Assembly (NCBI GenBank): GCA_017852335.1 | Contig: JAFMLG010000003.1 | Location: 1 to 64,000, forward strand | Length of the DNA: 64,000 bases | Origin: Actinomycetota bacterium | GTDB taxonomy: Bacteria > Actinomycetota > Nitriliruptoria > Nitriliruptorales > Nitriliruptoraceae | Reading direction: 5' to 3' | Part shown: positions 7,982 to 19,104 of the stretch, one piece after another | How the letters are laid out: each line of letters opens with the position of its first letter | Position numbering within the stretch: position 1 is the stretch's first letter | The notes under the pieces: generated by a model | Seen by the model: the letters and a program-made list of their open reading frames with translations, nothing else | What the model was told of the DNA's origin: nothing | Databases searched by the model: none | Translations under genes and position numbers: made by a program

Positions 7982-8776
7982 TCAGACCCGCCGGCGGGAG
8001 CGCTCGATCAGCGCCACGGCGAGGATCGCGACCTCGTAGAGGACGACCAGCGGGACCCCCACGGCGACGAGGCTGAGGATGTCGGTCGGCGTCACCAGCG
8101 CGGCGACGATCAGGTTGCCGACGATGGCGTACCGACGGGCGCTCCGGAGGGACGCCGCCGAGAGGACGCCGACGGCACCGAGGAACACGAGGACCAGCGG
8201 CACCTCGAACACGACGCCGAACCCGATGCCCATGGCCAGCAGGAACGTCAGGTACTCGTTCGCACCGAGCAGCGGCTGGATGTCCGTGCCGCCCAGCGTC
8301 AGCAGCACCTCGAGGCCGGTCGGGACGAACCAGACCGCGAACGCAAGGCCGAGGGCGAACATCACCTGGCTCATCAGGACGAAGGGCAGCGTGAAGCGCT
8401 TCTCGCGGCTCGTCAGCCCGGGCGCCACGAACCGCCACAGCTCGTAGAACAGGACCGGCGCGCCGAGGAACAGCCCGACGACCAGCGAGGCCCGGATCCG
8501 GACCGCGATCGGGTCCGTCGCACGGAACGCGTTGACCTGGCACGACTCCACCCCGACCACGTCGCAGTACGGGCCGAGGAGGACGTCGAAGAAGGTCGGG
8601 AACAGCAGGTACCCGATGACCGCGCCGAGTCCGATCGCGACGAGCGCGATCGAGAAGCGACGTCGGAACTCGCGGAGGTGCTCGGAGAGGGGCATCTCCC
8701 CGCGACGCCGGGCGTCACGGCGCGCCGCCTCGTCCGCCTCCCCGCCGCTCGGCAGGGGGTCGGGACCGGCGCTCAC
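7982..8776 (-). CDS. tatC: Sec-independent translocase subunit TatC
   Basis: 264-residue core receptor of the twin-arginine translocase, which exports folded proteins. The diagnostic cytoplasmic motif MPLSEHLREFRRR (28-40) is followed by six hydrophobic segments. The periplasmic stretch contains FRATDPIAVR, and the FVAPGLTSREKR loop is also typical. Two Cys (about 71 and 79) in the first periplasmic loop could form a disulfide. Start GTG/ATG overlaps tatA by 4 nt. No tatB is in the window; many actinobacteria carry it elsewhere. Confidence 0.96.
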   Translation of the reverse strand: MSAGPDPLPSGGEADEAARRDARRRGEMPLSEHLREFRRRFSIALVAIGLGAVIGYLLFPTFFDVLLGPYCDVVGVESCQVNAFRATDPIAVRIRASLVVGLFLGAPVLFYELWRFVAPGLTSREKRFTLPFVLMSQVMFALGLAFAVWFVPTGLEVLLTLGGTDIQPLLGANEYLTFLLAMGIGFGVVFEVPLVLVFLGAVGVLSAASLRSARRYAIVGNLIVAALVTPTDILSLVAVGVPLVVLYEVAILAVALIERSRRRV

Positions 8777-8991
8777 GCGTCGCGGTCGGTCCCGCTCCGC
8801 CCGGACTCGTCACGCGCCGTGTCGCGGGGGGCACCGGCCTGCTTCCCGTCCTCGACCTCGGCGGTCTCCTTGCGGAACTCCCGCATCGACCGGCCGATCG
8901 AGCCGGCGAGGTCCGGCAGGCGGCGCGAGCCGAAGAGGAGCAGGACGATGAACAGGATGATGAGCAGCTGCGGTCCGCCGACCCGTCCCAT
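8773..8991 (-). CDS. tatA: Sec-independent translocase subunit TatA
   Basis: 72 residues: a single transmembrane helix (about 8-21) ending in the invariant FG at 20-21, an amphipathic helix SRRLPDLAGSIGRSMREFRKE, and a charged, disordered tail. This is the pore-forming subunit of the Tat system. The ATG follows GGGAG by about 7 nt, and the gene overlaps tatC by 4 nt. It lies 15 nt behind pafC, so the Tat genes appear to be transcribed with the pupylation genes. Confidence 0.96.
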   Translation of the reverse strand: MGRVGGPQLLIILFIVLLLFGSRRLPDLAGSIGRSMREFRKETAEVEDGKQAGAPRDTARDESGRSGTDRDA

Positions 8992-9006
8992 GTGCGGTCT
9001 CCCGTG

Positions 9007-9969
9007 TCAGGCGTCCGACGTCCCGGACGCGGCGCCCGAGCTGCGCTCGAGCCGTTCGAGCCCCGCCAGGGCCCGCCGGTGGACGAGGGTACGCATCCCG
9101 GACGGGTCCCGGACCTCCGCGTGGCCGCCCGCCATCAGGATCAGCCGTGCGAACCACTCGGGGGCCCCGACGCGGAACCGCGCCGTCCGACCCCCCGGCG
9201 CCGCCCCCGTGGCCTCCGGGGCCACGGTGACGGCGTCCAGCAGCCACGTGCCCCCGGGGCCGAGCAGGACCTCGACCTCGGGGTCCTCCGGGCCCGGGAC
9301 GTACCGCGGGGCCTCCAGCTCGGCGGGGACCGGGACGGTCACGGGCTGCTCGGTCACGCGGAGGGCCGCGGCCCGGTCCAGGCGGAAGATGCGGGCCGCG
9401 CCGGCCCCGTGGTCGTGGGCGTGCAGGTACCAGGCCCCGTCGTGCAGCTCGAGGCGCCAGGGATCGAGGTCGCGGTCCACGGCGGTGGTGTCGCCGCGGC
9501 CCCGGTAGGAGATCCGGACCCGGCGTCCCGCGACGACGGCGGCCCGCAGCTCCTCGACCAGGTCACCCGCCTCCGGCTCGACCACCACGACCGCGTCCTC
9601 CGGGACGCCGAGCGCCGCGCGCAGCTTGGCGACCGCGCGGGTCAGCGCCCCCGCGGCGGGGCCGAGCATCCGCTCGGCCTGGGAGGCCGCGAGGAGGAGG
9701 CGGAGGGTCTCGGCCGGCGTGGTGCGCATCGGACGGCGGAGCTCGTCCGCCATTCCGACCACGACGGTGTCCCCCAGGATGCGGACGTCGATGAGATCGC
9801 CGCCGCCGAGCCCCGGCAGTCCGCAGTAGTCCAGGTGGTCGAGCTCGGTCCGGATCGCCTCCTCGGTCGTGGCGAAGGCCGCGGCGATCTCGGCGATCGA
9901 GGCGCCGGGCCGCTCCAGCAGCCACGGCACCAGCGTCAGCATCCGCACGACGTCGGGCACCCGGCTCAC
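9007..9969 (-). CDS. pafC: WYL-domain transcription factor PafC
   Basis: 320 residues. A winged-helix N-terminus (about 1-60) precedes a WYL domain with the GAWYLHAHD core near 160 and a C-terminal WCX extension. In mycobacteria PafB and PafC form a heterodimer that activates the RecA/LexA-independent DNA-damage response and senses single-stranded DNA, although both were named as proteasome accessory factors. The 4-nt overlap with pafB fits obligate partners. Given the uvr, nucS and polA genes in the same window, targets may lie nearby, but no binding motif was identified by eye. Confidence 0.92.
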   Translation of the reverse strand: MSRVPDVVRMLTLVPWLLERPGASIAEIAAAFATTEEAIRTELDHLDYCGLPGLGGGDLIDVRILGDTVVVGMADELRRPMRTTPAETLRLLLAASQAERMLGPAAGALTRAVAKLRAALGVPEDAVVVVEPEAGDLVEELRAAVVAGRRVRISYRGRGDTTAVDRDLDPWRLELHDGAWYLHAHDHGAGAARIFRLDRAAALRVTEQPVTVPVPAELEAPRYVPGPEDPEVEVLLGPGGTWLLDAVTVAPEATGAAPGGRTARFRVGAPEWFARLILMAGGHAEVRDPSGMRTLVHRRALAGLERLERSSGAASGTSDA

Positions 9970-10904
9970 GAGGGGACCTCCGCGTGGGCCTCGACCACGC
10001 GGTGCAGACCGTGCGCGACGTCGTCCCGCACCTCCGGTGGCCCGAGGACCGCCGCCTCCGGCGAGATCGCGAGCAGCCAGGCCAGGTCCCGGACGCGGTC
10101 CAGGCCCTCGACCCGCATCACGCGCGTCCCGTGGGCGCCCGGACCGACGTCCCGGCCGCCGCGGGCGACGACGTCCCGGACACCCTCGGGCGTCACCTCG
10201 AGGTCGACGGCCACCGGCCGGGCCTCGGGCCCGCTGACGACGGCGGCGAGGTCCAGGCCGTCGGGGACCTCGAAGGCACCGGCCTCCCCCACCGCCTCCA
10301 GCGGACCGGTCATGCGGTCGAGGCGGAAGCCGCGGAGCCCGTCGCGCGCCACGTCGCGACCCACCAGGTACCAGGCGCGGCGGCGGCGGACGACCCCGTA
10401 CGGCTCGACCTCGCGCGGCTCCTCCCGGCCGTCGGCCGTCCGGTACGGGAACCGGACGCGACGCCGCTCGACCACGACGGCGGCGGCCCCGTCCACCGCG
10501 GTGACGTCCAGCGGGAGCCGCGCCGCCGGGACGACGTCCGGATCGGGGTCCGGACCACGCGCCGAGACCTTGGCCAGCGCCAGGGCCAGCTCCGCGGGGG
10601 CGACCAGCTCGGCCGCCAGGGCGAGGGCCGTGACCTCGTCCGGCTCGAGGTGGAGGTCGCGGAGCTCGTACTCCCGGCGGTCGATGCGGTAGCCCGGCTC
10701 CTCCATCCCGTAGGCCTGCTCGGTCCGGATCGGGACGCCGAGACTCCGCAGCAGCTCCTTGTCCCGCTCGAACATCCGCCGTGCGGTCGCGTGCTCCGGC
10801 TGGGGGTAGTACCGCGTCCGCCGGCGGAGCTCGTCGAAGGTCATCGGCCGCCGGGCCTCGAGCAGGGCGATGGTGAGGTTCACGAGGCGTTCGGCGGCAT
10901 GCAT
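9966..10904 (-). CDS. pafB: WYL-domain transcription factor PafB
   Basis: 312 residues, paralogous to PafC. The HTH domain (about 1-75) has a MFERDKELLRSLG recognition region, followed by the WYL domain with RRAWYLVGRD near 170 and GFRLDRM. This is the partner of PafC in DNA-damage transcription control. ATG at 10904 is preceded by GAGGATC, and the stop of pafA lies 10 nt upstream, making pafA-pafB-pafC one unit. Assignment as B rather than C rests on gene order and on the N-terminal sequence. Confidence 0.92.
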   Translation of the reverse strand: MHAAERLVNLTIALLEARRPMTFDELRRRTRYYPQPEHATARRMFERDKELLRSLGVPIRTEQAYGMEEPGYRIDRREYELRDLHLEPDEVTALALAAELVAPAELALALAKVSARGPDPDPDVVPAARLPLDVTAVDGAAAVVVERRRVRFPYRTADGREEPREVEPYGVVRRRRAWYLVGRDVARDGLRGFRLDRMTGPLEAVGEAGAFEVPDGLDLAAVVSGPEARPVAVDLEVTPEGVRDVVARGGRDVGPGAHGTRVMRVEGLDRVRDLAWLLAISPEAAVLGPPEVRDDVAHGLHRVVEAHAEVPS

Positions 10905-10914
10905 GGGCGGATCC

Positions 10915-12273
10915 TCAGAGGGCGTCGATGAGGCGGTCGACCCGCTCGTCCTGCCAGACCAGGGGGTCCTTGCACAGCACCGTCCGCTGCGCCTGCTCGT
11001 TCAGCTTGAGGTGGACCCAGTCGACCGTGACGTCCCGCCCGGCCCGGCGCGCGGCCGCGAGGAACCGTCCGCGCAGCGCCGCCCGCGTCCGGCGGGGCGG
11101 GTGCTCCATCGCGTCGGCCACGGCCGCGTCGTCCACGAGCCGCTGCATCCTCCCCTCCCGGACCAGCAGGTGGTGCAGCCCGCGACGCGGGTCCAGGTCG
11201 TGATAGGCGAGATCGACGAGCGCCAGCCGCGGGTCGTCCGCGGGGAGGTCGTGTCGCGCGCGGTACGCCTCGAGCAGCCGCAGCTTCGCGACCCAGTCGA
11301 GCTGCCGCTCCAGCCGCATCGGATCCTCGCGCAGGGCGGCGAGGACGAACCGCCACTCCCCCAGCGCGTGCTCCGCCAGCTCGTCGTCCGGGTGACGGGC
11401 CGCCACGAACCGCTCGACCGCGACGAGGTACAGCTCCTGGACGTCGAGGGCCGTCGGGGTGCGACCGGAGGTCAGGCGGACCGGTCCGCGTCCCGACAGG
11501 TCACGACTGACGTCCCGGATCGCCACGGCGGGATCGGCCAGCTCCGGGGCGGCGAACGCGGCGCGCTCCTCGAGCATCCGGACGACCAGATCGGTGGTCG
11601 CGAGGCGGAGCCAGCAGGCGTAGTCCGACATGTTCGAGTCGCCGACGATCACGTGCAGCCGGCGGAACCGCTCGGCGTCGGCGTGGGGCTCGTCCCGTGT
11701 GTTGATGAGCGGCCGCGATCGCGTCGTCGCGCTGGACACACCCTCCCAGACGTGCTCGGCGCGCTGGGAGAGGACGTACTCGGTCCCGCCGGGGCCGCGG
11801 AGCAGCTTGCCCGCGCCGGCGAAGACCTGACGGGTCACGAGGAACGGGACGAGTCCGGAGGTGATGCGTCCGAAGTCACCGGCGCGGTCCACGAGGTAGT
11901 TCTCGTGCGACCCGTAGGAGTTCCCCGCGCTGTCGGTGTTGTTCCTGAACACGCGGACCTCGCCGCGGATGCCCTCCGCGGCGAGCGCCTCCCCCGTCCG
12001 GACGGCGAGGTCGTGGACGATGCGGTCGCCCGCGCGCTCGTGGACCACGGCCTCCAACGGCGTGGCGCACTCGGGGGTGGCGTACTCCGGATGCGCGCCG
12101 ACGTCGAGGTACAGCCGGGCCCCGTTCTCGAGGAAGACGCTGGACGAGCGACCCCAGGCGACCACGTGCCGGAACATGTGCCGGGCGACCTCGTCGGTGC
12201 TGAGGCGCCGCTGACCCCCGAGCGTGAACGAGACGCCGTACTCGGTCTCGAGCCCGATCACGCGCCGCCGCAC
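10915..12273 (-). CDS. pafA: Pup-protein ligase PafA
   Basis: 452 residues, glutamine-synthetase fold. It uses ATP to activate the C-terminal Glu of Pup and joins it to lysines of target proteins. The N-terminal GLETEYG carries the catalytic E9, and YLDVGAHPEYATPEC carries the base D57. RNNTDSAGNSYGSHENYL and the INTRDEPHAD loop are further family signatures. Length equals that of mycobacterial PafA. The gene sits between pup (56 nt upstream) and pafB. It is distinguished from Dop by lacking the insertion after ETEYG and by the VGAHPEY variant. Confidence 0.97.
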   Translation of the reverse strand: MRRRVIGLETEYGVSFTLGGQRRLSTDEVARHMFRHVVAWGRSSSVFLENGARLYLDVGAHPEYATPECATPLEAVVHERAGDRIVHDLAVRTGEALAAEGIRGEVRVFRNNTDSAGNSYGSHENYLVDRAGDFGRITSGLVPFLVTRQVFAGAGKLLRGPGGTEYVLSQRAEHVWEGVSSATTRSRPLINTRDEPHADAERFRRLHVIVGDSNMSDYACWLRLATTDLVVRMLEERAAFAAPELADPAVAIRDVSRDLSGRGPVRLTSGRTPTALDVQELYLVAVERFVAARHPDDELAEHALGEWRFVLAALREDPMRLERQLDWVAKLRLLEAYRARHDLPADDPRLALVDLAYHDLDPRRGLHHLLVREGRMQRLVDDAAVADAMEHPPRRTRAALRGRFLAAARRAGRDVTVDWVHLKLNEQAQRTVLCKDPLVWQDERVDRLIDAL

Positions 12274-12329
12274 GTCAGCCCCCGGTCGTCGTGCGGTGCC
12301 GTCGGCGCGTCACCGCGCCGCGACGCCGG

Positions 12330-12521
12330 TCACTCGCCGCCCTTCTGGACGTAGCCGCGGACGAACTCCTCGGCGTTGTCCTCGAGGACCTCGTCGATCT
12401 CGTCGAGCAGGTCCTCCACCCCGTCCAGCAGCTCGCGGGCCGGCGCCGCCGCCTCGGCCACCACGACGTCGTCGTCCCGCGGGACGTCGCCGGACCGCGA
12501 CACGCGCTCCGTGCCGGCCAT
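12330..12521 (-). CDS. pup: Prokaryotic ubiquitin-like protein Pup (GGE form)
   Basis: 63 residues from ATG 12521, which has GGAGGGA 4-5 nt upstream; a start 8 codons earlier lacks a ribosome site. The protein is acidic and mostly disordered, with the coiled-coil-forming helix ELLDGVEDLLDEIDEVL near 29-45 that docks on ARC. It ends QKGGE. Terminal Glu means it can be used by PafA directly, whereas GGQ Pups must first be deamidated by Dop. K60 is the only Lys, a possible Pup-chain site. Its own TACGCT hexamer lies 49 nt upstream. Confidence 0.97.
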   Translation of the reverse strand: MAGTERVSRSGDVPRDDDVVVAEAAAPARELLDGVEDLLDEIDEVLEDNAEEFVRGYVQKGGE

Positions 12522-12570
12522 CCGTCCCTCCGGGTCCCCGTGCACCGGACGCGGCCCGGTGCGCGCGCCG

Positions 12571-12576
12571 AGCGTA
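12571..12576 (-). promoter_or_regulatory. Candidate -10 box for pup
   Basis: TACGCT on the minus strand, the only TA-containing hexamer in the 64-nt dop-pup gap. It would give pup its own transcript with a leader of about 45 nt and allow Pup to be made in excess over its enzymes. Confidence 0.4.
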
Positions 12577-12585
12577 GCCGTGGCC

Positions 12586-14094
12586 TCAGGCGAGCTGGCC
12601 GGGGAGCTCCGGCGCGCCGCCGAGCCGCGCCAGCAGGTCGGCGGCGTCGACCGCCTCCTCGACGAGGTCGCCGACGCGCGCCCGCGTCCCGCGGCCGGGC
12701 TCGTCCAGCGGGAGCCGGACGAGCGCCTCGGCTCCCGTGTCGAGGACGACGCTGTCCCACCCCGCGGCCACCACCGCGTCCGGGAACCGGGCGATGCACC
12801 GCCCGCGGAACCACGCCCGCGTGTCCTCCGGCGGCACGGTCATCGCCCGCTCGACCTCGGCGTCGGTCGTGAGGCGCACGACCCGGCCCGCCGCCACCAG
12901 CCGGTGGTGGAGCCCGCGGTCGCGCCGGACGTCGTGGTACTGGAGGTCCAGCATCCGGACGCGGGCGTCCTCGGGTCCGAGGCCGTGCCGCTCGCGGTAG
13001 GCCTCGAGCACGGCCAGCTTCGTCGCCCAGTCGACGAGGCCCCCGAGGGCCGCCGGATCGGCGCGGGCGGTGTCGAGGAGGCGGGTCCACCATCCGAGGA
13101 CCAGCTCCTCCCCCGGACGGGCCCCCTCCCGAGCGACGAGGTCGGCGCAGGCGTCGCGGAGCCCCTCCTGGAGGTCGAGGGCCGTGACCCGGCGTCCGTC
13201 GGTCAGCGGGAGGGTCGCGCGGAGCGTGGTGTCCCGGCTGACGGTCCGGAACGCCCGGAGCGGATCCTCGAGCTCGGTCGGGTCCCCGAGCGCGCCGGCC
13301 GCGACCGCGCGGAGCACGAGCAGCATCGCCCCGACCTTCACCAGCGTCGCGACCTCGCAGAGGTTCGCGTCCCCGTTGATGACGTGGAGGCGCCGCCACC
13401 GGTCCGGGTCCGCGTGCGGCTCGTCGCGCGTGTTCATCAACGGGCGGCGGACGGTCGTCTCGAGGCCGACCTCGGCCTCGAAGAAGTCCGCCCGCTGGGA
13501 CAGCTGGAACGACGCCTCGGGAGCGGCGTCGCTCCCGACGCGCCCCGCGCCGGTCAGCACGACCCGGCTGACGAACATCGGGAGGAGGTGGCGGGTGAGC
13601 AGCCCGAACGGCACCTCGCGCGGGACGAGGTAGTTCTCGTGGGTGCCGTACGCCGCGCCCTTGCCGTCCGTGTTGTTCTTGTGGAGGTGGACGGTCGAAC
13701 CGGGCGGCAGCGCGGCCTCCGCGCGGCGACCCGCGGCCTCCATGATGCGCTCGCCCGCGACGTCCCAGACCACGAGGTCCCGGGCGGACGCGCACTCGGG
13801 CGTCGCGTACTCCGGATGGGCGTGATCGACGTACAGCCGCGCCCCGCTCGTCAGGACGGTGTTCGCGGCGCCGGCGTCTCCGATCACGGGCTCGGGACGG
13901 TCCGGCCGGACCTCGGGGATCCGGGCGTCGCGGTCCGGCTGCTCGTCGGTGTGGTCCCATCGCACCGCCGCACCGCCCCGACCGCGCCAGGCGTCGACGA
14001 CCAGCGTCGAGGCCCGGACCGGGTGGACCTCCTCGGGACCGGTGACGGCGACCCCGTACTCGGTCTCGACGCCGACGTACCCGGCCGGGGTCAG
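12586..14094 (-). CDS. dop: Depupylase/deamidase Dop, apparent CTG start
   Basis: 502 residues if read from CTG 14094; this removes Pup from substrates. The first ATG/GTG/TTG in frame is GTG 13965, but the essential GVETEYG motif (E10, E12) lies upstream of it in frame, preceded only by CTG. That CTG overlaps the arc stop as CTGA, the same geometry as the GTGA/ATGA junctions around it. Other Dop signatures are RWDHTDEQPDRDAR (Dop-loop region), YVDHAHPEYATPEC, KNNTDGKGAAYGTHENYL and NTRDEPHAD. The resulting length matches the family at about 500. With a GGE Pup, only the depupylase activity should be needed. Confidence 0.93.
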   Translation of the reverse strand: MTPAGYVGVETEYGVAVTGPEEVHPVRASTLVVDAWRGRGGAAVRWDHTDEQPDRDARIPEVRPDRPEPVIGDAGAANTVLTSGARLYVDHAHPEYATPECASARDLVVWDVAGERIMEAAGRRAEAALPPGSTVHLHKNNTDGKGAAYGTHENYLVPREVPFGLLTRHLLPMFVSRVVLTGAGRVGSDAAPEASFQLSQRADFFEAEVGLETTVRRPLMNTRDEPHADPDRWRRLHVINGDANLCEVATLVKVGAMLLVLRAVAAGALGDPTELEDPLRAFRTVSRDTTLRATLPLTDGRRVTALDLQEGLRDACADLVAREGARPGEELVLGWWTRLLDTARADPAALGGLVDWATKLAVLEAYRERHGLGPEDARVRMLDLQYHDVRRDRGLHHRLVAAGRVVRLTTDAEVERAMTVPPEDTRAWFRGRCIARFPDAVVAAGWDSVVLDTGAEALVRLPLDEPGRGTRARVGDLVEEAVDAADLLARLGGAPELPGQLA

Positions 14095-15797
14095 AGCGAC
14101 CGCCCGGCGGGGTGGGGGTCGACGGGCCGTCGGCGCGCGGCGTCACCGGCGAGCGGGCGCACGGCCACGACGGTGCCGCCACGGCGGCCGCCGATGCGGG
14201 CCCAGTCGCCGGGGTGTCCGGCCCCCGGCAGGTCCTCGTTCTCGCGCAGCTCCTCGGCGACCGCGGCCACGAGGTCGCCGGGCGCGAGGCCGTCGCCCCC
14301 CGCGTCGAGCTCCCGCCGGATGGCGTGCCGCTTCGCACGTGCGACGACGTTCTCGAGCAGCGCTCCGGACGCGAGGGCGCCGAGGTGCAGGACCTCCCGC
14401 TCGCCCGAGGCGTAGGTCATCTCGAGGAGCTCCGTCCCCGGCTCCTCGGCGTAGACCAGCTCGGTCGCGCGGTCGACCAGCGCGGCGGCGGCGGCGGCGC
14501 GGTCGCCGCCGTGGGCGGCGAGCAGGGTCGCGTCGAGCGGGACGTCGGCGGTGAGATGGAGGGCGAGGATCTCGCGTCCGGCGGTGCGGTCCGGCCGGTC
14601 GACGCGGATCTTGACGTCGAGCCGCCCGGGCCGGAGCAGCGCGGGGTCGATCATGTCCTCGCGGTTGGACGCGCCGATCACGATGACGTCGCGGAGCCGC
14701 TCGACGCCGTCGATCTCGGCGAGGAGCTGCGGGACGATCGTCGTCTCGACGTCGCTCGAGACACCGGTGCCGCGGGTGCGGAACAGCGCCTCCATCTCGT
14801 CGAAGAACACGACGACCGGCGAGCCGTCGGCCGAGAGCTCGCGGGCGCGCTGGAAGATGACGCGGATCTGCCGCTCGGTCTCCCCCACGTACTTGTCCAG
14901 CAGCTCCGGACCCTTCACGTTGAGGAAGTGCCCCCGGACCTCGGCGCCCCTCGCGGCCCCGACGCGGTCCGCGAGGGAGCGCGCGACGGCGCGTGCGATC
15001 AGCGTCTTCCCGCAGCCCGGCGGGCCGTACAGGAGGATCCCGCGCGGCGCCCGCAGGCCGTACCGGGCGTAGCGGTCCGCGTGGAGGAACGGCAGCTCGA
15101 CGGCGTCGCGGACGGCCCCGACCTGGGCGGCGAGACCGCCGATGCGCGACCAGTCGACGTCCGGCACCTCCTCGAGCACGAGGTGCTCGACCTCGGAGCG
15201 CTCGACGCGCTCGGCCGCGGTCCCGGCCCGTGGGTCGACGAGCAGCGTGTCTCCGGCCCGCACGCCGGCGGTCCGGACGGGCCCGGCGAGATGGACGACC
15301 CGCTCCTCCCCGCCCCGACCGACGACGAGCACACGACCGTCGTCGAGGACCTCGGCGACGCGCATCAGCTCGCCCCGGTCCTCGAACGCCCCGAGCCCGA
15401 CCACGGCGAGGGTCTCGTTCAGCAGGACCTGCTGGCCGGGGACGGGGTCCTCGGCGCGGACCTCCTCGGACCAGGCGACGTCGAGGACCCGGCCGGCGAC
15501 CGCGACGGACATCCCGCCCCCTGGTCCCGGCCCGAGGTAGGTCCCGTACGAGCGGGGCGCGGCCGAGAGCCGCTCCACCTCGTCGCGGAGCTCCTCGATG
15601 CGGGCGCGGGCCTCGCGCAGCGTCTCGGCGAGACGCGCGTTCTGGGCCGTCGCCTCGGCCAGCTCGCGCCGGAGCCGCGTCAGCTCGGAGGGCCGGGCCG
15701 AGCGGGCACCGAGCCCGGGAGCCGTCCGTCCGGAGGCGCCGGCGTCCCACTCCGCGTCGCGGTCCCGGTCGGGCCCGGGCGCCGGGATGCGTGGCAC
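14091..15797 (-). CDS. arc: AAA+ unfoldase ARC (Mpa-like), lacking the C-terminal proteasome motif
   Basis: 568 residues from GTG 15797, with GGAGG 5 nt upstream. A coiled coil (about 38-78) that captures Pup is followed by tandem OB folds (about 84-190) and an AAA+ module with Walker A YGPPGCGKT (257-265), Walker B FFDEME (331-336) and ASNREDMIDPALLRPGR. Hexameric ARC/Mpa unfolds pupylated proteins. Mycobacterial Mpa ends in GQYL, whose Tyr opens the 20S gate; this protein ends PAGRSL with no Tyr, as in proteasome-less corynebacteria. It is likely to work without a 20S core. Confidence 0.94.
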   Translation of the reverse strand: MPRIPAPGPDRDRDAEWDAGASGRTAPGLGARSARPSELTRLRRELAEATAQNARLAETLREARARIEELRDEVERLSAAPRSYGTYLGPGPGGGMSVAVAGRVLDVAWSEEVRAEDPVPGQQVLLNETLAVVGLGAFEDRGELMRVAEVLDDGRVLVVGRGGEERVVHLAGPVRTAGVRAGDTLLVDPRAGTAAERVERSEVEHLVLEEVPDVDWSRIGGLAAQVGAVRDAVELPFLHADRYARYGLRAPRGILLYGPPGCGKTLIARAVARSLADRVGAARGAEVRGHFLNVKGPELLDKYVGETERQIRVIFQRARELSADGSPVVVFFDEMEALFRTRGTGVSSDVETTIVPQLLAEIDGVERLRDVIVIGASNREDMIDPALLRPGRLDVKIRVDRPDRTAGREILALHLTADVPLDATLLAAHGGDRAAAAAALVDRATELVYAEEPGTELLEMTYASGEREVLHLGALASGALLENVVARAKRHAIRRELDAGGDGLAPGDLVAAVAEELRENEDLPGAGHPGDWARIGGRRGGTVVAVRPLAGDAARRRPVDPHPAGRSL

Positions 15798-15835: not shown

Positions 15836-16708
15836 TCAGTCTACGTCGGAGCCCACCGGGCCGCGCCGGCGCGGTGCGGACGGGCCGCCGTCCTCGACGC
15901 GGGGGACGCGTCGCGCCCGGGTCAGGAACGCCGTGTGGGCCACCATCCGGTGGGCCGGGCGCACGGCCGGACCGTCGACGTCCCACGGGCGGACCAGCGT
16001 CTCGGTGGTCGCGACGTCGGCGAACCGTCCGTCGTCGCGCAGCGCCTCGGTGACGCGGGCGACCTGGACGATGGACGGGAGGTACGTGACGAGGACCCCG
16101 CCGGGGGCGAGCGCCGTCGCGACGGCGTCGAGCAGCGGCCGGGGCTCGGGCAGATCGAGGACGACCCGGTGGACGGCGATCCCGGCCAGGACGTCGGCGG
16201 CCTCGCCGATCCGGAGGTCCCACCGCGCCGGCGCGCCGCCGTGGAACCGCTCGACGTTCGCGCGGGCCACCTCCGCGTGGTCCTCGCGGCGCTCGACGGA
16301 CGTCACCCGACCCTCGGGTCCGACGGCGTCGAGCAGCGCCAGCGTCAGCGCGCCCGAGCCCGCCCCGGCCTCGGCGACGTGCATGCCGGGCCGGACGTCG
16401 CCGAGCGCGACGATCATGGCCTGGTCCTTGGGGTAGACGACCTGAGCGCCGCGCCGCATCTTCAGGACCATGTCCTCGCGCGTCGGACGGAGGGCCACGA
16501 CCTCGGTCCCGCGCGGCGTCCGGACGGCCGTCCCCTCGGGACGACCGATGAGTCCGTCGTGCGGCACGGCCCCGGCGTTGGAGTGCCACGTCCCGCCGTC
16601 CTCGAGCGTGACGAGCGACCGCCGCCCGCGGGCGTCACGGAGGACGACGACCTCACCGGCCGCGAGGGGCGCGCGGTCCCCGGGGACGCCGAACCGGCCC
16701 GCGCTCAC
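15836..16708 (-). CDS. trmI: tRNA (adenine-58-N1)-methyltransferase TrmI
   Basis: 290 residues. A small N-terminal beta domain (about 1-75) is followed by a Rossmann methyltransferase domain with the SAM motif AEAGAGSGALTLALL near 112-126 and the acidic VTSVERRED. The VVLDLPEP motif IV is near 185. It makes m1A58 in the T-loop of tRNAs. Actinobacteria keep it next to the mpa/arc gene, as here. The last residues, rich in Arg and Pro, look disordered. Its start overlaps the GH65 stop by 4 nt. Confidence 0.94.
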   Translation of the reverse strand: MSAGRFGVPGDRAPLAAGEVVVLRDARGRRSLVTLEDGGTWHSNAGAVPHDGLIGRPEGTAVRTPRGTEVVALRPTREDMVLKMRRGAQVVYPKDQAMIVALGDVRPGMHVAEAGAGSGALTLALLDAVGPEGRVTSVERREDHAEVARANVERFHGGAPARWDLRIGEAADVLAGIAVHRVVLDLPEPRPLLDAVATALAPGGVLVTYLPSIVQVARVTEALRDDGRFADVATTETLVRPWDVDGPAVRPAHRMVAHTAFLTRARRVPRVEDGGPSAPRRRGPVGSDVD

Positions 16709-19104
16709 GCCGCGCCCCCGGCCGTCCAGCGCGGCGGGACGGCGACCTCGACGGCGGCTCCGGGTGTCACGGCGAGGACGTCACCACGCACGCCGATCTC
16801 GACCGCCTCCCCCTCGTCGAGTACGAGCCGCAGCCGACCGGGACGCAGCTCCACGGCCAGGACCCGCTCTCGGAACCGCAGCCGGAACGCGAGGCGCCCC
16901 CAGCCGTCCGGGAGCGTCGGATCGAACGCCAGGCGACCGCCGTGGTCGGTCAGTCCGGCGAAGCCGTACACGAGGGCCATCCAGACCCCACCGGCCGAGG
17001 CGACGTGGACGCCGTCGACGGCGTTCCCGGCCGCGTCGGCCAGATCCATCATCAGGGCCCGCTCGAAGTGGGCGACCGCCCGCCCCTGGTCGCCGATCGA
17101 GGCGGCGAGGATCGACTGGACGCAGGCCGAGAGGGAGGAGTCCCCCGTCGTGATCGGGTCGTAGTACGCGAAGTTCCGCTGGCGCTGCTCGGGTGAGAAC
17201 TCGTGGGAGAGCAGGAACATCGCGAGCACCACGTCCGCCTGCTTGATCACCTGGTGGCGGTAGATGACGAGCGGGTGGTAGTGGAGGAGCAGCGGGTACC
17301 GGTCCGGGGGCGTGCCGGCGAAGTCCCAGACCTCCCGCTCGAGGAAGCCGTCGTCCTGCGGGTGGACGCCCCGCTCGGCGTCGAACGGGACGTACATCGC
17401 GTCCGCCGTCCGGCGCCAGGTGGTCGGCTCCTCCGGGAGGAGACCGAGCTCCCGCACGAGCCGCCGGTGGGCCGCCGGGCGCTCGGCCGCGAGCCACTCC
17501 AGCGCCTCGGCCGCGAGACGGAGGTTGTGACGGGCCATCAGGTTCGTGTAGGCGTTGTCGTTCACGACGGTCGTGTACTCGTCCGGCCCCGTGACGCCGT
17601 GGATGTGGAAGCGGTCGTCGTCCGGGCTGAGGAACCCGAGCCCGCACCACATCCGGGCCGTCTCGACCAGCATCTCGGCGCCGATCTCGACGAGCAGCTC
17701 GCGGTCGCCGCGGACGTCGAGGTACCGCCCGATGGCGTGCGCGATGTCGGCGTTGATGTGGTACTGAGCCGTTCCCGCCGCGTAGTACGACGACGCCTCC
17801 TCGCCGTTGATCGTCCGCCAGGGGAACAGGGCACCGTGCTCGGAGAGCTCGTCCGCCCGCTCGCGCGCCTTCGGCAGCATGGAGTGCCGGAACCGCAGCA
17901 GGTTCCGCGTCAGGCGCGGTTCGGTGTAGGTCAGGAACGGCGTGACGTAGACGTCGGCGTCCCAGAAGTAGTGCCCCTCGTACCCCGCGCCCGTCAGCCC
18001 CTTCGCGCCGATGCCGGCGGTCTCGGCGCGGCTGGAGGCCTGGTGCAGCTGGAACAGGTTCCATCGCACCGCCTGCTGGACCCGCGGGGTCGCGTCGACC
18101 TCGACCTCGACGTCGGCCCGGTCCCAGAACGCGTCGAGGGCCGCGCGCTGCCCCACGTGGAGTCCCTCGATGCCGGTCGCGACGGCGCGGTCGAGGCTGC
18201 GCAGTCCCCGGTCGACCAGCTCCTCCGCCGGGACGACGCGGGACGTGTGGTAGGTGACGTGCTTCTCGATGCGCAGCGTCCGACCCGCCGTGGCCTCGAC
18301 CGTGACCACGTGCTTCGCGAGGTCCTCGGTCCAGGTCGTCGCGGTGGTGTGGGTGTCGGCCGTGGCGATGACGTGGTCGACGCCGACGCACATGCTCATC
18401 CCCGACGCGGTCGTCCGGTATCCGGTGACGAGGCGGCCGCCGTCGGCGACGTGGGAGCGGGCGGAGAGGACGCGACCCGGGAACGGCCGCGCCCGGCGGG
18501 GGTCGTGTCCCGCCCCGCGCGGCTCGTCGAGGGCCCGGGCGTCCTGACGGTTCAGGACCTGGGACGAGACGACGACCGCCGCATCCGCGTCGACCTCGAC
18601 CTCGTGCACGATCGCCGCGAGGTGCCGATGCTCCAACGAGACCATCCGGGAGGACCGGATGGTCACGTGCTTCCCCCCGGGGGTCGACCAGACCAGCTCG
18701 CGGGTCAGGACTCCCGCCCGGAGGTCGAGGACGCGCTCGTACGCCAGCAGCCGGGCGCTGGGCAGGTGGAGCGGTTCGTCGTCAACGTACAGCTTCAGCA
18801 GCGTCGCGTCCGGGACGTTCACGATGGTCTGTCCGGTCCGCGCGAAGCCGTACGCCTGCTCGGCGTGGACGATCGGCCACGTCTCGTGGAACCCGTTCAG
18901 CAGCGTCGCGGCCTCGTGGACCGGACGGCCCTCGTCGTGCATGCCGCGGATGCCGATGAAGCCGTTCGCGACGGCGAAGACGCTCTCGGCCCAGCCGAGG
19001 CGCCGCTCGTCGAAGGCGCGCTCGACGAGCCGCCACGGGTCCGACGGATAGACGTCCTCCGGGAGGTCGCCGACCGGACCGGGCCGCGCGCGGGCCGCGC
19101 TCAC
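16705..19104 (-). CDS. GH65 disaccharide phosphorylase (maltose/trehalose/kojibiose type)
   Basis: 799 residues with the full GH65 architecture: N-terminal beta-sandwich, (alpha/alpha)6 barrel, C-terminal beta domain. Seen motifs include KGLTGAGYEGHYFWD (368-382), the general acid E509 in VTGPDEY, and KQADVVLAMFLL for the phosphate-binding region. Such enzymes split an alpha-linked glucose disaccharide with phosphate to glucose and beta-glucose 1-phosphate. No beta-phosphoglucomutase gene is adjacent, so the sugar cannot be assigned and hydrolase activity is not excluded. The gene lies between msrA (1 nt) and trmI (overlap), an unusual place for a sugar enzyme. Confidence 0.88.
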   Translation of the reverse strand: MSAARARPGPVGDLPEDVYPSDPWRLVERAFDERRLGWAESVFAVANGFIGIRGMHDEGRPVHEAATLLNGFHETWPIVHAEQAYGFARTGQTIVNVPDATLLKLYVDDEPLHLPSARLLAYERVLDLRAGVLTRELVWSTPGGKHVTIRSSRMVSLEHRHLAAIVHEVEVDADAAVVVSSQVLNRQDARALDEPRGAGHDPRRARPFPGRVLSARSHVADGGRLVTGYRTTASGMSMCVGVDHVIATADTHTTATTWTEDLAKHVVTVEATAGRTLRIEKHVTYHTSRVVPAEELVDRGLRSLDRAVATGIEGLHVGQRAALDAFWDRADVEVEVDATPRVQQAVRWNLFQLHQASSRAETAGIGAKGLTGAGYEGHYFWDADVYVTPFLTYTEPRLTRNLLRFRHSMLPKARERADELSEHGALFPWRTINGEEASSYYAAGTAQYHINADIAHAIGRYLDVRGDRELLVEIGAEMLVETARMWCGLGFLSPDDDRFHIHGVTGPDEYTTVVNDNAYTNLMARHNLRLAAEALEWLAAERPAAHRRLVRELGLLPEEPTTWRRTADAMYVPFDAERGVHPQDDGFLEREVWDFAGTPPDRYPLLLHYHPLVIYRHQVIKQADVVLAMFLLSHEFSPEQRQRNFAYYDPITTGDSSLSACVQSILAASIGDQGRAVAHFERALMMDLADAAGNAVDGVHVASAGGVWMALVYGFAGLTDHGGRLAFDPTLPDGWGRLAFRLRFRERVLAVELRPGRLRLVLDEGEAVEIGVRGDVLAVTPGAAVEVAVPPRWTAGGAA

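Follow-up and report, generated by a model that had tools for sequence, protein, structure and literature searches.

Our analysis showed that a genus of Nitriliruptoraceae has lost the 20S proteasome, that the C-terminal tail of its ARC ATPase has drifted, and that its remaining pupylation genes are under selection. We put at roughly 0.65 the probability of the full reading, namely that the 20S and the ARC tail were lost, that tagging, untagging and unfolding were kept under selection, and that ARC remodels its clients without a peptidase chamber. Judging from the protein families involved, ARC most likely takes pupylated complexes apart or unfolds them, and the tag is recycled by Dop; the clients are probably not ferritin-family proteins. 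The preliminary description of this DNA had proposed a pupylation locus built to work without a 20S proteasome. Its core, pupylation without a 20S and an ARC uncoupled from it, is supported at the sequence level (no PF00227 match and no GQYL tail in any of four genus genomes), whereas its use of the Pup terminus GGE, the idea of a built design, release in the ferritin form and a hand-over to another protease by way of the ARC tail were not supported.

The pupylation locus

The window, i.e. the whole stretch of 64,000 nucleotides that was analysed, belongs to contig 16 of a 1.7-Mb genome (82 contigs, 97% complete). An ARC similarity search placed its relatives in the Nitriliruptoraceae. The locus is intact and lies on the minus strand in the order TrmI-like methyltransferase, ARC, Dop, Pup, PafA, PafB, PafC. 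Its features are as follows.

15836..16708, minus strand: TrmI-like methyltransferase, the conserved upstream neighbour (synteny), used as housekeeping control
14091..15797, minus strand: arc/mpa, proteasomal-type AAA ATPase (TIGR03689, 687 bits, cut-off 505; PF16450, PF17758, PF00004)
14094..14156, minus strand: C-terminal tail of ARC, PLAGDAARRRPVDPHPAGRSL, lacking the 20S-docking motif GQYL (comparison of ARC tails)
12586..14094, minus strand: dop, depupylase/deamidase, 502 aa (TIGR03688, 552 bits, cut-off 492)
12330..12521, minus strand: pup, 63 aa, C-terminus VQKGGE (TIGR03687, 66 bits, cut-off 41; PF05639 above cut-off)
12274..12329, no strand: pup-pafA junction, 56 bases, the site of prcB-prcA in order members whose block was read whole
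10915..12273, minus strand: pafA, Pup ligase, 452 aa (TIGR03686, 620 bits, cut-off 551)
9966..10904, minus strand: pafB-like WYL regulator (PF13280 WYL), a conserved neighbour of pafA in relatives
9007..9969, minus strand: pafC-like WYL regulator (PF19187 HTH_PafC, PF13280)

ARC, Dop, Pup and PafA each scored above the curated NCBIfam equivalog cut-off. The methyltransferase has no curated model behind its name, and we take it to be TrmI from synteny and general knowledge. ARC has 568 aa, starts with a GTG at 15797, and is made up of a coiled coil, two OB domains and an AAA domain. At 14091-14094, no ATG, GTG or TTG precedes the conserved GVETEYG of Dop. The likely start of Dop, as read from the sequence, is the CTG at 14094, which overlaps the ARC stop (CTGA) and would be either a non-canonical start or else a sequence error. 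For Pup, the ATG at 12521 lines up with the starts in relatives upon alignment, and there is an in-frame GTG at 12545.

Comparison showed that members of the genus have much smaller genomes than their relatives. The G+C content of the window is 75.8%, an unusual pairing with a genome of 1.7 Mb, because reduced genomes are mostly A+T-rich.

Loss of the 20S proteasome and of the ARC tail

The genus was sampled by four genomes (G000, G002, G003 and G004) and the rest of the order by 32. These were searched with the PF00227 profile, which covers the proteasome fold, HslV included, and which was positive in E. coli as well as in nine further controls. This genome-wide search for prcA and prcB bore out the preliminary description, since PF00227 gave no match in the window's genome (97% complete) or in the three other genus genomes. 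A match was found in 30 of the 32 other order genomes; in G014 and G028 the sole match was weak and of a different kind. Each of the four genus genomes has ARC and the PafA/Dop family. The locus thus has every part of a proteasome-less locus of the Corynebacterium type, i.e. a Pup ending in GG(E/Q), PafA, Dop and an ARC lacking the C-terminal 20S interaction motif, with no prcA or prcB in any of the four genomes.

As the preliminary description had stated, arc, dop, pup and pafA run together, and prcB-prcA, which the canonical Pup-proteasome system has between pup and pafA, is missing from this place in the window's genome. The junction has only 56 bases and therefore leaves no room for prcBA. 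Wherever the complete block of an order member outside the genus was available, prcB and prcA were located between pup and pafA, at distances ranging from directly adjacent to several kilobases. Each of the four genus members has pafA immediately after pup in an otherwise syntenic operon, with prcBA cleanly deleted. A tree of the ARC core, PafA and TrmI united the genus in one clade (SH-aLRT 100) and placed it inside the order, beside the 20S-bearing G029 and G030 (SH-aLRT 93). Because the genus is nested among 20S-bearing order members, the loss is secondary. Read from the sequences, it is most simply one event on the genus stem. We conclude that the genus as a whole lost its 20S secondarily and retained pupylation, in an independent parallel to the corynebacteria.

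Bpa, the second activator of the 20S besides ARC, has been said to co-occur strictly with 20S genes (PMC8223512). Its co-loss was considered as support for the loss of the 20S and was found unusable, because Bpa (PF10759) is also missing from many 20S-bearing order members, single-contig genomes included. In the order-wide search, PF10759 had no match in several 20S-bearing Nitriliruptorales, among them the single-contig G009 and G016. Bpa/PafE may be absent from these genomes or too divergent for the PF10759 model.

The ARC of the window ends in PHPAGRSL and the Pup in GGE, both as previously described. The canonical gate-opening tail, GQYL, was present in all 28 readable ARCs of the rest of the order and in none of the four genus ARCs, which end in PAGRSL, GTGSDR, GGTRGS and GAAPAG; since tail loss is one evolutionary event, the 28 and the four are not 32 independent trials. 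No conserved replacement tail that could serve as a docking site was found across the four genus members, whose tails differ in length and sequence. Within this short tail, substitutions are about equal at all three codon positions. From its sequence, the tail looks like the product of drift after the loss of the 20S, with four unrelated ends, rather than a new design, and the phrase "built to work without" a 20S overstates the case. Whether or not it carries GQYL, the tail is probably disordered.

Relatives that keep a 20S together with such an ARC tail were also sought, with none among the 28 readable tails in the rest of the order and one outside it. In a survey of the phylum, 102 of 111 loci with a readable ARC tail had GQYL or GTYL. 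The other nine had neither; eight of these lie in genomes without PF00227, and the ninth is that of Mobilicoccus pelagius, which has prcB and prcA. As a sequence marker of the 20S, the tail is therefore useful but imperfect. It helps to separate true losses from assembly gaps, because the ARC of G041 keeps GQYL in a genome with no PF00227 match.

In Mobilicoccus pelagius (L079), ARC (8001-9506) ends in EGDVL, prcB lies at 16790-17506 and prcA is also present; this ARC may be uncoupled from its existing 20S. In four Lentzea loci (L049, L054, L067 and L071), ARC ends in GTYL instead of GQYL, a variant of the docking tail, and no prcBA was found in the stretch read.

Within the genus, the GGE terminus of Pup is private to the window's species. 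The Pups of the three sister species end in GGQ, as in the 20S-bearing order members that were read, and a GGE Pup was found at 12 loci with a 20S and an intact ARC tail. The GGE terminus, which had been taken as a sign of proteasome-free life, was therefore rejected as a marker. Because its Pup ends in GGE, the window's species should no longer need Dop for activation; the Pup would be ready for ligation from birth, whereas in the three sister species Dop would still have to deamidate it.

Selection on the remaining genes and possible roles

All four pupylation genes are open in all four genus species. Between genus members, the third-position differences of the ARC core, Dop and PafA are 0.37-0.46 and those at first and second positions 0.09-0.24, as in TrmI, the former being two to four times the latter. 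On these codon patterns, we regard the ARC motor, Dop and PafA as remaining under purifying selection in the genus. ARC keeps its Walker A (GPPGCGKT), Walker B (VVFFDEME) and pore loop (KYVGETE), and its coiled-coil pattern is mostly kept. Relative to the family, the rate in the genus was 2.8 for ARC, 3.6 for PafA and 2.3 for Dop vs 1.6 for TrmI. The pupylation proteins retain 74-85% of the family-invariant residues, and TrmI 89-93%. The faster evolution could also mean a partial relaxation, and agrees with the report that members without a 20S are more variable (PMC3511204).

The only role that reviews report for pupylation without a 20S is in C. glutamicum, whose ARC dismantles pupylated ferritin and thereby releases iron (PMC8223512, PMC12288473, PMC5515868). 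We searched with PF00210, the profile for ferritin, bacterioferritin and Dps. None of the four genus genomes (G000, G002, G003 and G004) had a match, while the C. glutamicum control was positive. A match was present in 21 of the 32 other order members. Its lack across a whole genus is unusual, compared with a match in all 14 control genomes, C. glutamicum included. With no PF00210 gene detected in any genus genome, the release proposed by the preliminary description is unlikely in its known ferritin form, and the ferritin precedent is only a mechanistic analogy here. The clients of pupylation in this genus are probably not ferritin-family proteins.

The comparison shows that the genus ancestor carried the standard operon ARC-dop-pup-prcBA-pafA and then lost prcBA. 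ARC next shed its GQYL tail, which no longer served a purpose, and selection continued to act on tagging, untagging and unfolding. In the proposed mechanism, PafA would couple Pup to lysine residues of its clients. ARC would hold Pup by its coiled coil, pull on the client, and disassemble or unfold it without a peptidase chamber. The freed chains would refold or be removed by general proteases, ClpP for example, and Dop would remove and recycle Pup.

That the 20S genes are present but were missed in an incomplete assembly (97%, 82 contigs) has a very slight probability. Such gaps do occur, as in G041, G024, G014 and G028, which have no clear prcBA matches yet keep GQYL. In the genus, four independent genomes agree in having no PF00227 match, pafA directly follows pup, and none of the four ARCs retains the docking tail; the assembly gap was rejected on these grounds. 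It is also quite improbable, if somewhat less so, that the operon is a decaying relic whose deletion is pending. The raised rates of ARC, PafA and Dop and their lower share of retained invariant residues would fit a relic, but the four genes are open in four species with changes mainly at third codon positions, like their housekeeping neighbour, and from reduced genomes one would expect a useless operon of 5 kb to vanish.

Two other explanations are unlikely to about the same degree, each less so than a relic. One is that ARC passes pupylated clients to another peptidase, e.g. ClpP, via a different surface, so that pupylation is still a degradation signal. ClpP genes are present in the genus (two each in G000, G002 and G004, and a single partial gene in G003), and ARC retains its pore loop and motor. 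However, the four ARC ends, different in length and sequence, offer no conserved replacement tail, and ARC is not known to have a ClpP-docking loop. For the hand-over to another protease that was suggested earlier, a route through the C-terminal tail is unsupported, as the four ends share no new conserved sequence. The other is that pupylation acts as a reversible signal on its own, through the PafA/Dop cycle, with an additional or minor role for ARC. The related genome G058 has retained pup and pafA but neither ARC nor Dop, so that tagging can outlast an unfoldase; yet in the genus ARC is retained in all four genomes, under purifying selection. ATP-driven remodelling by ARC without a peptidase chamber is the best-supported reading.

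G058 belongs to the same class (2.1 Mb, 96% complete). It has TrmI and a 40-residue Pup ending in GGE, with a PafA-type ligase directly after it (L210:7101-8584, G058:C2). No ARC, no second PF03136 protein (Dop) and no PF00227 match were found in this one genome (96% complete). Its Pup and PafA have these families as best match, with scores below the NCBIfam cut-offs. G058 resembles the genus in having no 20S, with pup directly before pafA and TrmI upstream, but differs in having neither ARC nor Dop and a Pup of only 40 aa. It is an apparent case of minimal pupylation, more extreme than the genus and known from one genome. If true, its Pup and ligase would make an irreversible tag without a known reader.

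The class contains the full operon, the 20S loss of the genus and, in the separate lineage of G058, Pup and ligase alone, with a 40-residue Pup. A bolder reading, less likely than not, is that pupylation in this class was freed from degradation and became an independent system that tags and remodels clients, ferritin not among them. Ferritin in C. glutamicum is the only client that reviews name for pupylation without a 20S (PMC8223512, PMC12288473, PMC5515868). Here the 20S was lost separately and at shallow phylogenetic depth, and no ferritin-family gene was detected; this suggests that the tagging system is maintained by something else, and the 1.7-Mb genome is a place to look for it. The close 20S-bearing relatives give a clean before-and-after view of the changes in ATPase, ligase and depupylase that accompany loss of the protease.

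Comparison with known systems

The operon order and the neighbours (TrmI, PafB, PafC and TatA) are those of the canonical system, as in Mycobacterium and in the 20S-bearing Nitriliruptorales G008, G009 and G029, but prcB-prcA and the GQYL tail of ARC are missing from the genus. Some actinobacteria have been reported to lack the 20S genes yet keep pupylation (PMC3511204, PMC8223512); in these, the ATPase has no C-terminal interaction motif and pup adjoins pafA (PMC3511204), an arrangement shared by the genus. The locus of C. glutamicum, as it is described in the sources that relate it (Kuberl et al. 2016, via PMC8223512, PMC12288473, PMC5515868), likewise keeps ARC, Dop, Pup and PafA without prcBA. 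Unlike C. glutamicum, the genus, which belongs to a different class of the phylum and lost its 20S separately, has no detected ferritin/Dps-family gene and so misses the known client, and includes sister species that keep a GGQ Pup.

ARC tails were also lost in G163, G285 and G376 (family f38) and in Serinicoccus sediminis (L055), where they read SLVRS, LADKN, KSIDLG and DLGER, in genomes without PF00227. These four lie outside the class of the genus and are separate losses; Pup ends in GGE in G163 and G376, the two in which it was read. A full-text literature search, with incidental matches judged by title, found no paper on pupylation without a 20S in relatives of Nitriliruptor. Pupylation without a 20S is already known as a state, and the genus, notable for its missing ferritin, is a new and separate case of it.
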